From: Methylophilaceae bacterium
Lineage (GTDB): Bacteria; Pseudomonadota; Gammaproteobacteria; Burkholderiales; Methylophilaceae
Direction of reading: 5' to 3'
NCBI GenBank assembly: GCA_028247015.1
Contig: JAOKFJ010000005.1
Coordinates: 1-62,953, forward strand
Length of the DNA: 62,953 nt
Part shown: positions 5,747-19,360 of the stretch, one piece after another
Position numbering within the stretch: the stretch's first letter is position 1
Layout of the letters: the number at the start of each line of letters is the position of its first letter
Made by a program: the position numbers and the translations under genes
The notes under the pieces: model-generated
The model's input: only the letters and a program-made list of their open reading frames with translations
What the model was told of the DNA's origin: nothing
The model's database searches: none

Positions 5747-6284
5747 TTAATAAACTAATGTTTTTAAATGCATCATGTTTAGATGATTTAATCCATTCAA
5801 ATACAACAGATTCAGTATTGGTTATAATACAACCGGCTTGTCGAAGACGATTTAATGCATTTTGCTTATTTGAAATGTTTCTTGAGGCAACAAGATCTTC
5901 AATTATAAAGACATCCTTACCTTTTTTGAGTAAGGACAATGCTGTTTGAAGAATACAAATATGTGCCTCCATGCCTAATAAAAAAACTTGCGACCTTGTT
6001 CGAACTAAACATTTTTCAAATGCTGGTTCATTTGTACTATCAAAGACAGTCTTTTCAACATATCTAGCTTCATTTAATAAGGGTTGCATTTTATCTAAAG
6101 TGTGGCCTAGCCCTTTAGGATATTGTTCTGTAAAAACCTGAGGAATACCTAGCTCTAAACTTACCCTTTGAACAATTTCAAACCGCCGTATCATTTTATT
6201 AATAATTTCATTAGGCATAACCGACGCTAGTTTTTCTTGCATATCAATTATTATTAGCTGGCTTTTCTCTTGTTGAGCGATCAT
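5730..6284 (-). CDS. Isochorismatase-family cysteine hydrolase
   Basis: 184 residues with the complete isochorismatase-like catalytic set: Asp14 (IIIDMQ), Lys78 (VEKTVFDS) and Cys110 (GMEAHICIL). Members hydrolyse amides or vinyl ethers (nicotinamidase, N-carbamoyl or YcaC-like reactions); the substrate here cannot be told from sequence. The start ATG overlaps the tolC-like stop in an ATGA arrangement, so the two form one operon. The 3' end overlaps waaA head-on. Pairing with an efflux gene may be accidental. Confidence 0.8.
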   Translation of the reverse strand: MIAQQEKSQLIIIDMQEKLASVMPNEIINKMIRRFEIVQRVSLELGIPQVFTEQYPKGLGHTLDKMQPLLNEARYVEKTVFDSTNEPAFEKCLVRTRSQVFLLGMEAHICILQTALSLLKKGKDVFIIEDLVASRNISNKQNALNRLRQAGCIITNTESVVFEWIKSSKHDAFKNISLLIKNID

Positions 6285-7672
6285 AGTGGTTCCGTTATGA
6301 GATATTGGTTAATTCCATCTAGGTCTTGCATCGTTAACATGCCTACTGATAATTTTAAATTTATTAAATGCATTAAATAATTATAGCGTGATTCTAATAT
6401 ATCCTTCTTTGCATTAAAAAATACTTGTTGAGCAACTAAGATATCGATGCCATTCCTTAATCCTTCACTAAAGCCGATTTTAGTTGATTGTAGCTGTAAT
6501 TTAGCGGATTCTAAGGCTTGTTTGTAAGACTTTATTTGTTCAAAGGTAGCTTTTAGATTTAAGTAGTTTTCACGAACTCGAAGCTCAACTTGTCTTCGAA
6601 GATATTCAGCATCCTGCTCTACTTTTTTCTTGAGTAATTTTGCTTCTCTTACCCTTGAACTAGTCAAACCGCCTGAAAATATAGGTATATTAATTTGAAC
6701 GCCTAATACGTCAGAAAAAGATCGGTTACCCTGATTGGGAGTTGTTCCATAAGGATATCCACCTTTATCCCATGTTCTTGTTCTCCTAGCAATAGCATCT
6801 ACTGTGGGGTAATGGCCCGACTGCTTAATATCTATCTCACGATCTGCAATTTTGATTTCGTCCTCTTTTATTCTCAGTTCTAGACTATTTTCATATGCCA
6901 TAGAGACCCAATTTTTTATAGGGGTATCTATTTGCTCAAAAGAGATTACAGGACTTAACCCTTTTAGTTTTCCAGGGAGTTCCCCAGTTAAGGATTGTAT
7001 TTGACGTTTTTTTATTTTATATTTTTGAATGGCAGCAATTTGTTGTGCTTTAACTAAAGCGGCTTTTGTTTTTGTTTCATTAATATCGATAATAGAAATT
7101 AGACCTGCATCGTATTTAGCTTCCGCTTGAAGTAACTGTTCTTGAATAGCTGCTCTTTGAGCCTGGAGCAAATCTACTTGATCTTTTGCCATTAATGCCT
7201 CGAAATAGAATAAACTAATTCGATACATAAGATCTTGTTGTGAGTAAATTAATTGTTTATCTGATAAGTTTGTTTGGGTCAAAATCTGTTTGTATTTTGC
7301 GAAGGCACTATAGTCAAATAAAGGCTGTGTGATGGTTATTCCATAATCATAGCTATTAAAGTCAGCCTCTGTTCCACTCAATAATGCATTATCAATATTT
7401 GTATATATTTTTCTTTGATTATCATTTTCATCATAACCTGCATTCATATTAATGCTTGGTAAAAACAATGATCGTCCTTGTGAAATTAATTCATGAGTGG
7501 CTTCATTCTGAAATCTTGCAGAAGAAAGAGATGCGTCATATGAAAGCGCCTGCTGATAGAGAGATAACAAATCTTTTTCTTGAGAATGAATCGAGGCATG
7601 GAAAATAAAGGTAGCTAAAATGACCAAAAAAGGCTTTTCTATTAAATGAAATAAAAATGTATTAAAAGGCAT
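6281..7672 (-). CDS. tolC: TolC-family outer-membrane efflux channel
   Basis: TolC-type outer-membrane factor, which forms the trimeric exit duct for type I secretion and efflux pumps. Two homologous helical-hairpin halves are visible; the C-terminal half carries GLRNGIDILVAQQ and LKLSVGMLT, typical of TolC. I start at the ATG ending at 7672 because it leaves a normal export signal (about 30 residues ending near IHSQ). The ATG 39 bases upstream (7711) gives an over-long N-region and lies inside a TATAAT hexamer that could be the promoter. No inner-membrane pump or adaptor gene lies beside it. It is followed by the hydrolase with a 4-base overlap. Confidence 0.85.
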   Translation of the reverse strand: MPFNTFLFHLIEKPFLVILATFIFHASIHSQEKDLLSLYQQALSYDASLSSARFQNEATHELISQGRSLFLPSINMNAGYDENDNQRKIYTNIDNALLSGTEADFNSYDYGITITQPLFDYSAFAKYKQILTQTNLSDKQLIYSQQDLMYRISLFYFEALMAKDQVDLLQAQRAAIQEQLLQAEAKYDAGLISIIDINETKTKAALVKAQQIAAIQKYKIKKRQIQSLTGELPGKLKGLSPVISFEQIDTPIKNWVSMAYENSLELRIKEDEIKIADREIDIKQSGHYPTVDAIARRTRTWDKGGYPYGTTPNQGNRSFSDVLGVQINIPIFSGGLTSSRVREAKLLKKKVEQDAEYLRRQVELRVRENYLNLKATFEQIKSYKQALESAKLQLQSTKIGFSEGLRNGIDILVAQQVFFNAKKDILESRYNYLMHLINLKLSVGMLTMQDLDGINQYLITEPL

Positions 7673-16555: not shown

Positions 16556-17071
16556 TTATTTATTGATATTAAGATTAAGAAGAGACCTTGTGACTATTCC
16601 ATTTACTAAACCAAAAAATAGAGCAGAAATCATAAAAATAGGTAATAGATAAAAAATACCATCATGAGGAATTATCCAAAATCTTACTATTAAAAGCTGA
16701 CCAATAATATGTGCAAAAGCTGCAATTACACTTAAGCTAATTACACTAAAATATTTTCCATTAATGCCTTTGAATATAAATAAAAATAAGAGGCTGAATA
16801 TAGAACCAGCGAGACTTAAAAAAAATGTTGGGCCAAGAAAGGTTCCCACAATGATGCTTACGATAAATACTCGAATAATAGAGACCCATACGGCTGTAAC
16901 AAAATCAAATTTAATGATAGTAAAAAGAATAATGATATTAGCGATTCCTGGTTTGACACCAGGTATAGGGCTTGGGAAAAAAAATTCAATTAATGATAAA
17001 GCTATTGCAATAGCTGTTAATTTAGCTACTTTATGATCTTGATTAATTATTTTAATAATTGAGCGAGTCAT
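16556..17071 (-). CDS. Gx transporter / heptaprenyl diphosphate synthase component I-like membrane protein
   Basis: 171 residues from the ATG at 17071, with about five membrane helices. The N-terminal LTAIAIALSLIEFFFPSPIPGVKPGIAN fits the family annotated as Gx transporter or heptaprenyl diphosphate synthase component I. An in-frame ATG 54 bases upstream (17125) is rejected because it would extend deep into the preceding gene, while 17071 begins just before the conserved region. It overlaps the NusG_II gene by 20 bases and follows apbE in the same operon. In other bacteria this trio accompanies flavin-based extracytoplasmic electron transfer; no catalytic role is demonstrable here. Confidence 0.75.
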   Translation of the reverse strand: MTRSIIKIINQDHKVAKLTAIAIALSLIEFFFPSPIPGVKPGIANIIILFTIIKFDFVTAVWVSIIRVFIVSIIVGTFLGPTFFLSLAGSIFSLLFLFIFKGINGKYFSVISLSVIAAFAHIIGQLLIVRFWIIPHDGIFYLLPIFMISALFFGLVNGIVTRSLLNLNINK

Positions 17072-17450
17072 AATCTGTTTGATTGCCAATAATTGAAATA
17101 TAAATTTGATTTGGTACACAGACAATACTCTGGTTAATTTGATTTATCCATCCTTGATGAATACAGTATTTTTTGGTGCAAGGCGACTTTGAAATTCTAA
17201 CCTTTCCAGAGTCAATAATAACTTCAGTTTTTCCGACTGGACCTTCAATTACTTTAGTTACATTTTGATTTAGACTGAATGAGCCTATTTCTTGCTTTCC
17301 CATATCAATTTTAAGATATTCACCTTGTGGAAAATTCCATAATATTGACGAGAGGTAAGTAGTCAGTACGATAAAAATAATAATTGTAAATAAGTCACCT
17401 ATTTGAATTTTACTAATGAACTGTAATATTTTTTTCATCAATTTCTTCAT
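17052..17450 (-). CDS. NusG domain II-containing membrane-anchored protein
   Basis: 132 residues: one N-terminal membrane helix (about 20-40), then an extracytoplasmic NusG_II-type beta domain. The family's conserved cysteines are present in SPCTKKYCIHQGWI and SIVCVPN. A second ATG four codons in (17438) has a better ribosome site (GAAG). It overlaps apbE by 38 bases and the Gx gene by 20. Despite the name it is unrelated in role to transcription factor NusG. It is probably part of a flavin-dependent electron-transfer module with ApbE. Confidence 0.78.
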   Translation of the reverse strand: MKKLMKKILQFISKIQIGDLFTIIIFIVLTTYLSSILWNFPQGEYLKIDMGKQEIGSFSLNQNVTKVIEGPVGKTEVIIDSGKVRISKSPCTKKYCIHQGWINQINQSIVCVPNQIYISIIGNQTDYDSLNY

Positions 17451-18450
17451 GCCATTTTATTAGGTTTAACATATCATTACTAATTGAAATTTTACCGTCA
17501 GTCATTATTATCATATAAAAATCTATACCTAATTCTTTAGCAATACTATATTTTAAATTTTCAGGGGCAATAAATAGAGGTTTTGAATAAACATCTGATA
17601 ATGTTCCTGAGAACTCAATTGGGGGAAGTAATACGGTAGCTGATTGAGCATTAGTTGCAGGGTATCCTGTATTAGGGTCAATTAAATGTGAATATCTTTG
17701 ATTGTCTACTATAAAATATCTTTGGTAGTCACCTGACGTTCCGATTGACCACCCCGGACTCAGACTGATTGATCCAATTGAATTTGGTTTTCTGGGGTGT
17801 TGAATGCCAACAACCCAATTTCTATCCCCGTGTTTACCCAAGGCCAGAATATTACCTCCTATATTAATTAGAGCATTATTTATATTATTTTCATCAAGAA
17901 TTTTTTTTGCTTGATCTAGTGCATACCCTTTTGCATAGCCACCTAGATCAAGTTTTATATTATTATTATTAGACCTTAAATAGCCTCTCTGGATAATTAT
18001 TTCTGACATATGTGGAAGATTTCTTTGAAGATTATCAATCACTATTGAATTAGGCCTATTTGTAGAAAATTCCTCTGCATGAAATCCCCATGCTTCAACT
18101 AAATTGCCTATGGCGGGGTTAAAGTAGCCATATGTTTTTAATTCGAGTTCTTTGTTATGATTGATGATTGAAATAATTTCTGTATCTTCTGTTGTATATA
18201 TTTCTTGGTTTTTAATTGATTGATTTATTTCTTGAACAATACTTTTTTCCCAGGGATGGAGGTATTCATGAAGTCTTCGAAACTCATTAAAAACTAGTTC
18301 TATCGCATTAGTGGCTTTATCGCTAGTTTCTCCATAAATTGTTACTTCGACTATGGTTCCAAAAATATAATCTTTTTTTTGAATTGTCTCATTTTGGCCG
18401 CAGCCTGTTAGAAAAAATACCAATAGGACTATTAATTTATTGAAGTGCAT
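17413..18450 (-). CDS. apbE: FAD:protein FMN transferase ApbE
   Basis: 345 residues. Signal peptide with lipobox LTGC places the lipidated cysteine at residue 17, so it acts on the periplasmic side of a membrane. It uses FAD to attach FMN covalently to a threonine or serine of target proteins. Conserved blocks: LDLGGYAKGYALD, NIGGNILALG, SGDYQRYF and SHLIDPNTGYPA. It overlaps gshB by 14 bases and the NusG_II gene by 38. No protein with an obvious FMN-acceptor motif was seen in the window, so the target must be encoded elsewhere or be unrecognised. Confidence 0.93.
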   Translation of the reverse strand: MHFNKLIVLLVFFLTGCGQNETIQKKDYIFGTIVEVTIYGETSDKATNAIELVFNEFRRLHEYLHPWEKSIVQEINQSIKNQEIYTTEDTEIISIINHNKELELKTYGYFNPAIGNLVEAWGFHAEEFSTNRPNSIVIDNLQRNLPHMSEIIIQRGYLRSNNNNIKLDLGGYAKGYALDQAKKILDENNINNALINIGGNILALGKHGDRNWVVGIQHPRKPNSIGSISLSPGWSIGTSGDYQRYFIVDNQRYSHLIDPNTGYPATNAQSATVLLPPIEFSGTLSDVYSKPLFIAPENLKYSIAKELGIDFYMIIMTDGKISISNDMLNLIKWHEEIDEKNITVH

Positions 18451-19360
18451 TGATTATAAATTCGGCATAATTAATATTAGATTGATTTTGAATTTCTACT
18501 AAGCCTGTAGGGCTAGTTACATTTATCTCTGTAAGATAACAGCCAATAATATCTATCCCAACAAAGTTAAGGTTTTTTTCTAGTAAATACGGCTTGATTC
18601 TACTAATAATAATCTCATCATTTTTATTAATTTTTCTTATTACGCCGGAACCTCCTTTTGCTAGATTTGCTCTTATTTCATCAGATTGTGGAATTCTTGT
18701 TAAGCCATATGGTAAGGGCTCTCCGTTCACTAAAATAATTCGAGTATCCCCCTCTGATATTTCTGGGATAAATTTTTGTACCATAATTGAGTGATGAGAA
18801 TCACTAATCATAGTTTCTAGGATAACATTTAAATTTTTATCTTTATTTGTAACCATAAAAATTCCATTTCCAGCCATTCCGTCTAATGGCTTTAAAATAA
18901 CTTTTTTATATTTTGATATAAACTCCTTAATGGCAGAAAAAGAACTCGTAACAAGAGAAGGTACAATTAAATCATTAAATTGTAAGATAGATAATTTTTC
19001 GTTATGACTTCTTATAGACGAAGAATCATTAAATATTTTAATATCATTGGACTTTATGTGATCAAGAATATGGGTAAGGTTTAAGTAAGAACCATCAAAT
19101 GGAGGATCTTTTCTTATAAATATTTTATTAAAATACTGAATATTATTTTTTGTTATATTACTAGAAGTTATAGATTTATTTATCGCTTCGATTTTTTGGT
19201 ATTCAACTTCAATATTCATTTCTGAGTCAATTGAAATTGCATCAATAGTAGAATAAAAAATATTAATTTTTTGACGTAAGCACTCTTTCATCAATATAAT
19301 AGTGGTGTCTTTATGTAATGCTAAGCTCTCAATGGGGTCTATTATAAAAAGATAATTCAT
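18437..19360 (-). CDS. gshB: Glutathione synthetase GshB
   Basis: 307 residues, ATP-grasp enzyme adding glycine to gamma-glutamylcysteine. Typical blocks include IRKDPPFDGSYLN, VILKPLDGMAGNGIF, EGDTRIILVNGEP and EINVTSPTGLVEI. It lies 5 bases after gshA, giving a two-gene glutathione unit. The overlap with apbE suggests cotranscription with the flavin module. Confidence 0.96.
   Translation of the reverse strand: MNYLFIIDPIESLALHKDTTIILMKECLRQKINIFYSTIDAISIDSEMNIEVEYQKIEAINKSITSSNITKNNIQYFNKIFIRKDPPFDGSYLNLTHILDHIKSNDIKIFNDSSSIRSHNEKLSILQFNDLIVPSLVTSSFSAIKEFISKYKKVILKPLDGMAGNGIFMVTNKDKNLNVILETMISDSHHSIMVQKFIPEISEGDTRIILVNGEPLPYGLTRIPQSDEIRANLAKGGSGVIRKINKNDEIIISRIKPYLLEKNLNFVGIDIIGCYLTEINVTSPTGLVEIQNQSNINYAEFIINALQ

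Follow-up and report, generated by a model that had tools for sequence, protein, structure and literature searches.

A probable ECF-derived FAD exporter, with genes at two loci, accompanies ApbE and Rnf-type complexes in Methylophilaceae

The DNA analysed here, referred to as the window, is a stretch of 62,953 nucleotides from a Methylophilaceae bacterium (assembly GCA_028247015.1, contig JAOKFJ010000005.1, positions 1 to 62,953). The genes for ApbE, a NusG_II protein and a Gx protein were found at positions 16556-18450, all on the minus strand and each overlapping the next. The apbE gene (17413..18450) encodes a flavin adenine dinucleotide (FAD):protein flavin mononucleotide (FMN) transferase lipoprotein of 345 amino acids (PF02424, 214.9 bits) with the lipobox LTGC close to its N terminus. 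The NusG_II gene (17052..17450) encodes an EetA-like, membrane-anchored protein of 132 amino acids (PF07009, 81.4 bits) with a single hydrophobic stretch at the N terminus, three cysteines and the motif C-x4-C-x3-G...C-x-P; its distant relatives among solved proteins were 4esn, 4obi, 2kpp and 3ld7 (E 6.5e-8 to 0.009). The Gx frame was listed at 16556-17125, and the ATG at 17071 is the better start, giving an EetB-like membrane protein of 171 amino acids (16556..17071) of the energy-coupling factor (ECF) S type that is hydrophobic over most of its sequence and matches PF07456 with 140 bits (cut-off 30). Gx is proposed to be an FAD carrier and the NusG_II protein its partner. The gshB gene (18437..19360, minus strand) shares 14 bases with apbE, and gshA is also upstream. 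The Pfam matches, the lipobox, the N-terminal hydrophobic stretch and the coordinates bear out the original prediction, made from the DNA letters alone, of three overlapping genes joined by overlap to gshB.

The best-scoring 49 NusG_II loci, each of up to approximately 3.3 kb and one of them the window's own, were checked by tblastn for the presence, not the order, of the neighbouring genes. Matches to GshB, ApbE and Gx were found together in 45 of the 49 loci, ApbE and Gx in one and Gx alone in three, so that Gx was matched in all 49 and ApbE in 46. The three loci with Gx but without an ApbE match were all from families other than Methylophilaceae. The recurrence of GshB, ApbE and Gx at 45 of 49 loci indicates that the grouping is not due to chance; the gshB linkage is conserved, and there was no evidence in the sequences for a role of gshB in flavin function. 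A strict form of the NusG_II cysteine pattern matched 17 of 48 loci and missed 31, and a looser pattern applied to 11 of these 31 matched seven and not the other four. In three other betaproteobacterial families (L146, L147 and L148), the NusG_II and Gx genes had no apbE among the frames listed nearby, and the adjoining frames are presumably rapZ, hprK, rpoN and lptB-type genes.

We take the NusG_II protein to be EetA on the basis of its conserved pairing with PF07456, and this identity is very probable. PF07456 is the family that defines EetB in the work of Rivera-Lugo and colleagues (PMC9973259), and the function given by the Pfam name, heptaprenyl diphosphate synthase (component I), was rejected for Gx on that account. 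In that work, Listeria EetB is ECF-S-like and binds FAD, and flavinylation without added FAD needs EetB together with the T-type protein FmnA and ECF ATPases; deletion of eetA gave no electron-transfer phenotype (PMC9973259). The published neighbours of eetB included eetA in 3,328 genomes and apbE in 2,169, most often with Rnf and extracellular electron transfer (EET) systems, and some Gram-negative bacteria are reported to have another flavin exporter (PMC9973259). Given the published role of EetB, which binds FAD as part of an exporter, and the absence of an electron-transfer phenotype in the eetA deletion, the Gx/NusG_II pair is best read as a flavin supply and not as an electron path. The original prediction of a flavin module built around ApbE, of a kind known elsewhere, thus holds for the module, but not for the electron-transfer role given to Gx and NusG_II. 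No paper on a NusG_II or Gx transporter combined with ApbE was found in the open-access literature.

The assembly that contains the window amounts to 879 kb and is 61.7% complete. It had no FMN_bind and no NqrB/RnfD match, an absence that says little at this completeness, and the strict acceptor motif D-x-x-[ST]-G-A-[ST] was found in none of the window's open reading frames of at least 100 amino acids. The original prediction of a module without an acceptor was therefore correct for the assembly, but was rejected as a biological fact. Since the genome is approximately 62% complete and its relatives encode Rnf, Nqr and FMN_bind-PepSY proteins elsewhere in their genomes, the lack of an acceptor probably reflects a gap in the assembly. 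The relatives were found among 61 genomes, 37 of Methylophilaceae (the window's included) and 24 from 24 other families, in which FMN_bind was matched in 43 and NqrB/RnfD in 35. In the Rnf operons read in three of them (G036, G040 and G015; L272-L274), RnfD contained SATPLD and RnfG contained D-Y-[MT]-[AV]-G-A-T, one residue off the strict motif. Within the window's genus, candidate acceptors were RnfG and RnfD in G015, NqrB and NqrC in G027 and an FMN_bind-PepSY pair with DGISGAT in G005, G019 and G027; RnfG and NqrC of the genus have A or V where the strict motif wants S or T. The row nearest to the window's genome on a TruA tree, G027, had NqrC and NqrB matches, next to further genes which we take to be nqr genes, and an FMN_bind protein with DGISGAT adjoining a PepSY-type protein. 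Candidate acceptors for ApbE were present in relatives, as DGISGAT-bearing FMN_bind proteins, RnfG and NqrC, and none was found in the 62%-complete assembly itself. Rnf, Nqr and FMN_bind-PepSY proteins are the likely clients in relatives of the window's genome, as judged from their sequences.

The NusG_II and PF07456 matches occurred in the same 36 of the 61 genomes. Among the 37 family genomes, ApbE was found in all and each of NusG_II and PF07456 in 31. Six family genomes were without the pair (G014, G017, G019, G023, G024 and G031); all of them kept ApbE, and none had an NqrB/RnfD match. One half of what the original prediction named as its refutation, the absence of NusG_II and Gx from relatives in which apbE is retained, is thus seen in 6 of 37 family genomes, but all six also lack NqrB/RnfD. 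For this reason the pair follows Rnf/Nqr-type complexes rather than ApbE.

A fourth part was found at a different locus. Of the 120 family genomes, 59 had PF02361 (CbiQ, ECF-T) matches, most of them weak. The ten PF02361 loci inspected were all located between a fimV-type frame and truA, as we have named these neighbours. A profile built from these ten loci (A1) and searched against the 120 family genomes detected the ECF-T gene in 89, including the window's genome, where the gene is unlinked to the window locus and encodes an ECF-T-like protein of 205 amino acids (contig C6, 6135-6752, minus strand; profile match 6153-6734) in the order fimV, ECF-T, truA, trpF. In all 89 genomes truA is the next gene after ECF-T and has the same orientation, with a gap of 0-249 bases. 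In named genomes, 44 ECF-T loci were detected, with titles of Methylophilaceae or its genera, Methylophilales, Sulfuritalea, Rhodocyclaceae, Betaproteobacteria and unclassified Proteobacteria; truA followed in 43 by the filter used, and the remaining locus (L293) had the same ECF-T C-terminal sequence as a locus where truA overlaps by one base (L106). Before the ECF-T gene, the fimV C-terminal motif was found in 27 of the 44 loci and a frame of more than 250 amino acids in 38, some of the stretches being cut short there. In Pfam the ECF-T protein gave a weak 'CbiQ' match or none (two of seven proteins tested, and also that of the window's genome). The ECF-T-like protein of G052 (L270, 6669-7271) was without the TPGE...PTYEG loop common to most and had no Pfam match, with its place between fimV and truA kept.

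Two alignments were used for comparison with known proteins: one of 37 rows, four available rows being left out (A2), and one of 42 of the 44 loci after a length filter (A6). The 37-row profile matched only EcfT among solved proteins (4hzu_T, 4huq_T and 5d3m_D; E 1.7e-8 to 1.5e-6). An AlphaFold model of one ECF-T member, made with the 42-row alignment, had a predicted local distance difference test score (pLDDT) of 89.4, and in Foldseek its first ten rows were EcfT (E 1.7e-6 to 3e-3, query TM-scores 0.50-0.64), the next, unrelated, row having an E value of 2.6. In a structure comparison, EcfT and CbiQ chains were found at Z 14.4 to 10.0, with a root-mean-square deviation of 4.7-6.1 Å, and the next row was at 4.2. 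The closest known proteins are thus the ECF T components (EcfT, CbiQ and BioN), EcfT being matched by both the sequence profile and the predicted fold of the fimV-truA protein.

Co-inheritance was followed in the 120 family genomes with the RnfB model TIGR01944 and the NusG_II and ECF-T models. TIGR01944 gave some match in all 120 genomes and a match above its cut-off in 117, since a shorter RnfB-like protein (approximately 208-230 bits) also matches; full RnfB was taken as at least 264 bits, a cut set after the score gap was seen, and the shorter class was taken as a separate protein and not counted. NusG_II, ECF-T and full RnfB were all present in 83 genomes, all absent in 25 and mixed in 12. 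Of the mixed genomes, four had NusG_II and ECF-T but not full RnfB (G000, G007, G027 and G076), five had Rnf and NusG_II but not ECF-T, one had Rnf alone (G081), and two had Rnf and ECF-T but not NusG_II (G111 and G136). The six genomes with Rnf but without ECF-T were exactly the six without a TruA match, and because TruA was not found in the same six, the ECF-T locus is taken to be missing from these assemblies. In the 114 genomes with truA, the ECF-T gene was present in all 89 with NusG_II and/or full RnfB and in none of the 25 with neither (Fisher test 1e-25, relatedness ignored). At a completeness of at least 95%, 73 of 75 genomes were all-or-none, with G136 and G027 as exceptions. Where all three were absent (25 genomes), the frame preceding truA ended FimV-like in 22, was a shorter FimV-like frame in two (G017 and G019, one cut by a contig end) and was another frame in one (G095). 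A short RnfB-like protein was the best RnfB match in 24 of these 25 genomes, and a similar one is encoded in the window's genome (contig C23, 44941-45384; L151) with 219.9 bits to TIGR01944.

The TruA tree contained 100 of the 114 genomes; the ECF-T gene was present in each of the 14 others, of which 11 belong to genus g38 and three to the window's genus. The ECF-T state changed six times on the tree, at least four of the changes being forced by starred branches, compared to eight changes each for NusG_II and Rnf, for which genomes with a missing locus were scored absent. Of the four firm independent pairs, NusG_II went along in a mean of 4.0 and Rnf in a mean of 3.7, and neither ever went in the opposite direction.

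Outside the family, NusG_II, PF07456 and clear ECF-T matches were found in the same 5 of 24 genomes (G040, G050, G052, G056 and G060), an exact two-trait coincidence expected by chance at 2.4e-5 with relatedness ignored. In all five, a fimV-type frame preceded the ECF-T gene and truA followed it, and homologues of rnfB, rnfC, rnfD and rnfG were present together. The other two genomes with strong NqrB/RnfD matches (G045 and G046) had NqrC and NqrF and lacked the pair, and neither RnfB nor RnfC was found in the stretch examined. The 17.7-bit ECF-T match in G045 was an ordinary T unit (PF02361 3-206 of 216); alignment A4 does not include it. In G056 (L323) and G060 (L325), additional rnf-like clusters had homologues of RnfC, RnfD and RnfG and no RnfB match.

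The gene identities, their linkage, the co-inheritance of unlinked loci, the predicted EcfT fold and the loss of the ATPase-coupling signature described below were obtained in this analysis. Together with the published exporter they make it probable that ApbE is supplied by an ECF-derived FAD exporter, encoded at two separate loci, wherever flavinylation of Rnf (or Nqr) is required. The EetB-like Gx would bind FAD in the membrane and, with the NusG_II protein (EetA) and the unlinked ECF-T-like protein, would move it to the periplasmic face, where ApbE could use the exported FAD to attach FMN to RnfG and RnfD and, in the window's clade, probably also to Nqr or FMN_bind-PepSY proteins. We infer FAD as the substrate from Listeria EetB, and the direction of transport, the physical interaction and the acceptor served are inferred as well. 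The Listeria EetB-FmnA-EcfA/A' exporter, with FmnB (ApbE) and EetA (PMC9973259), resembles the present set in having PF07456, ApbE, a T-type protein and flavinylated extracytosolic clients and, if EetA is a NusG_II protein as is very probable, NusG_II too. In contrast to Listeria, the host here is Gram-negative, the T-type gene is unlinked (fimV-truA), without arginine signatures and with no ECF ATPase seen alongside, and Rnf, Nqr or PepSY-type proteins, not PplA, are likely to be the clients. The EetB family is also tied to Rnf in Clostridia, where the same paper describes Rnf clusters with eetB (PMC9973259), whereas the Rnf operons of G036, G040 and G015 (L272, L273 and L274) are distant from the pair on the same contig. 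In the open-access literature, no paper was found on the fimV-truA T-type gene or its tie to flavinylation, and none relevant to CbiQ with FimV or TruA by title and the start of the abstract; the EetA-EetB-ApbE link and the tie to Rnf are already published.

A number of observations limit this proposal. The predicted structure of Gx, a single-sequence model, had a pLDDT of 59.4, too poor for judging an ECF-S fold. The sequence match of the ECF-T profile stops at residue 180 of 4hzu_T, just before KIMNAQRARG is complete, and the PF02361 matches end at or before profile position 156 of 216 in 59 of 59 places, whereas the match of a different T unit from the order covers 3-206. Two arginine signatures (ARG/ARS) are reported to occur in all T units and to have been crosslinked to the ATPases (PMC3246461). 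The pattern [AGS]R[GSA] was found in the last 90 amino acids in three of 37 rows (A2) and two of 42 rows (A6), and twice in none and one, respectively, the two sets overlapping; the segment is the least confident part of the ECF-T model. By a crude motif test an ABC ATPase was found at none of the 44 ECF-T loci, within up to 9 kb on each side and often less, other ATPases in the genomes not being searched. The fimV-truA protein is T-derived and, unlike EcfT, CbiQ and BioN, has a truncated PF02361 match and lacks ARG/ARS in nearly all members, so that it falls short in a trait by which functional T units are defined. A more specific form of the proposal, in which Betaproteobacteria export FAD without an ATP motor, by an EetB S-type carrier, a T-type scaffold with lost ATPase contacts and an EetA partner, from two loci and kept with Rnf (or Nqr), is held only tentatively; a motor-less or a re-wired exporter is a testable reading.

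The distribution also contains exceptions to the proposed exporter. In the 120 genomes the pair was followed by NusG_II alone, and with four firm pairs a sign test cannot reach 0.05. G007 (91% complete) and G027 (95%) have NusG_II and ECF-T without full RnfB, G027 having nqr genes, and G136 (L275; 99% complete) has Rnf and ECF-T with no NusG_II match, so that EetA may be dispensable or replaced there. Five of the 31 pair-bearing family genomes had no NqrB/RnfD match (G000, G005, G007, G010 and G029), four of them being less than 70% complete. FMN_bind is kept with ApbE in five of the six pair-less family genomes (DGISGAT in G019, SGAT in G031), so FAD must reach ApbE by another route there, and Escherichia coli, one of the control genomes, has matches to ApbE, FMN_bind and NqrB/RnfD and none to NusG_II or PF07456, so such complexes can be made without the pair. 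Since these relatives and E. coli do without the pair, room is left for a role specific to Rnf. NusG_II, Gx and the ECF-T-like protein would then be a device for Rnf biogenesis, in flavin placement or in assembly of RnfD and RnfG, and not a general supply of FAD. The set tracks full RnfB and, outside the family, accompanies rnf rather than nqr; ApbE is kept in all six pair-less family genomes; and in the three other families the pair adjoins genes of the rapZ/hprK type, the frames listed there including no apbE. We nevertheless regard such a device as unlikely, because EetB is reported to be required for flavinylation of PplA, which is not an Rnf protein (PMC9973259), because the pair is close to apbE within the family (46 of the 49 loci with ApbE) and because NusG_II and ECF-T persist in G027 and G007, where full RnfB is absent.

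Two further explanations appear very improbable. The one put forward originally was that the NusG_II cysteines and Gx pass electrons across the membrane to a flavinylated partner. The C-x4-C...C-x-P motif (17 of 48 loci in strict form, seven of 11 others re-inspected) and the presence of eetB in EET and Rnf clusters (PMC9973259) are consistent with it, but the same paper describes EetB as binding FAD and acting in export and the Listeria eetA deletion as without an electron-transfer phenotype, and Pfam gave no redox-cofactor domain for Gx or NusG_II. It is just as hard to credit that the genes are passengers whose joint loss came from broad gene loss in lineages losing Rnf, with no functional coupling. 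Genomes of the window's genus are small (0.7-1.4 Mb) and the firm independent pairs are only four; however, the genes are also absent from genomes of 2.4-3.2 Mb (genera g35, g41, g43 and g46), what is absent between fimV and truA is one gene only, and other families show the pattern again. The FAD route to ApbE is called obscure in a review (PMC12052999). The proposed exporter provides a defined gene set in Gram-negative methylotrophs by which this route becomes testable, adds a candidate to exporters made of vitamin-importer parts and suggests a function for the fimV-truA gene, which Pfam matches weakly as 'CbiQ' or not at all. Should the T-type part really function in the absence of its customary contact to an ATPase, this would mean that ECF-type carriers can be powered differently.

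A likely second client of ApbE was seen in the FMN_bind-PepSY pairs. The order of an FMN_bind protein followed by a PepSY_TM protein is described for PepSY-type flavinylated systems (PMC8238504) and is the same in the window's genus, where this FMN_bind-PepSY pair lies elsewhere in the genome. An FMN_bind and PepSY_TM pair with DGISGAT was confirmed by Pfam in G005 and in G019, the latter being without NusG_II and Gx. An FMN_bind (DGISGAT) frame with a PepSY-type and a porin-like frame was seen at L154 (6442-7708), L155 (6610-7859) and L153 (12894-14169). In G031, likewise without NusG_II and Gx, a second, short ApbE of 274 amino acids adjoins its own FMN_bind protein (L156, 6629-8052).

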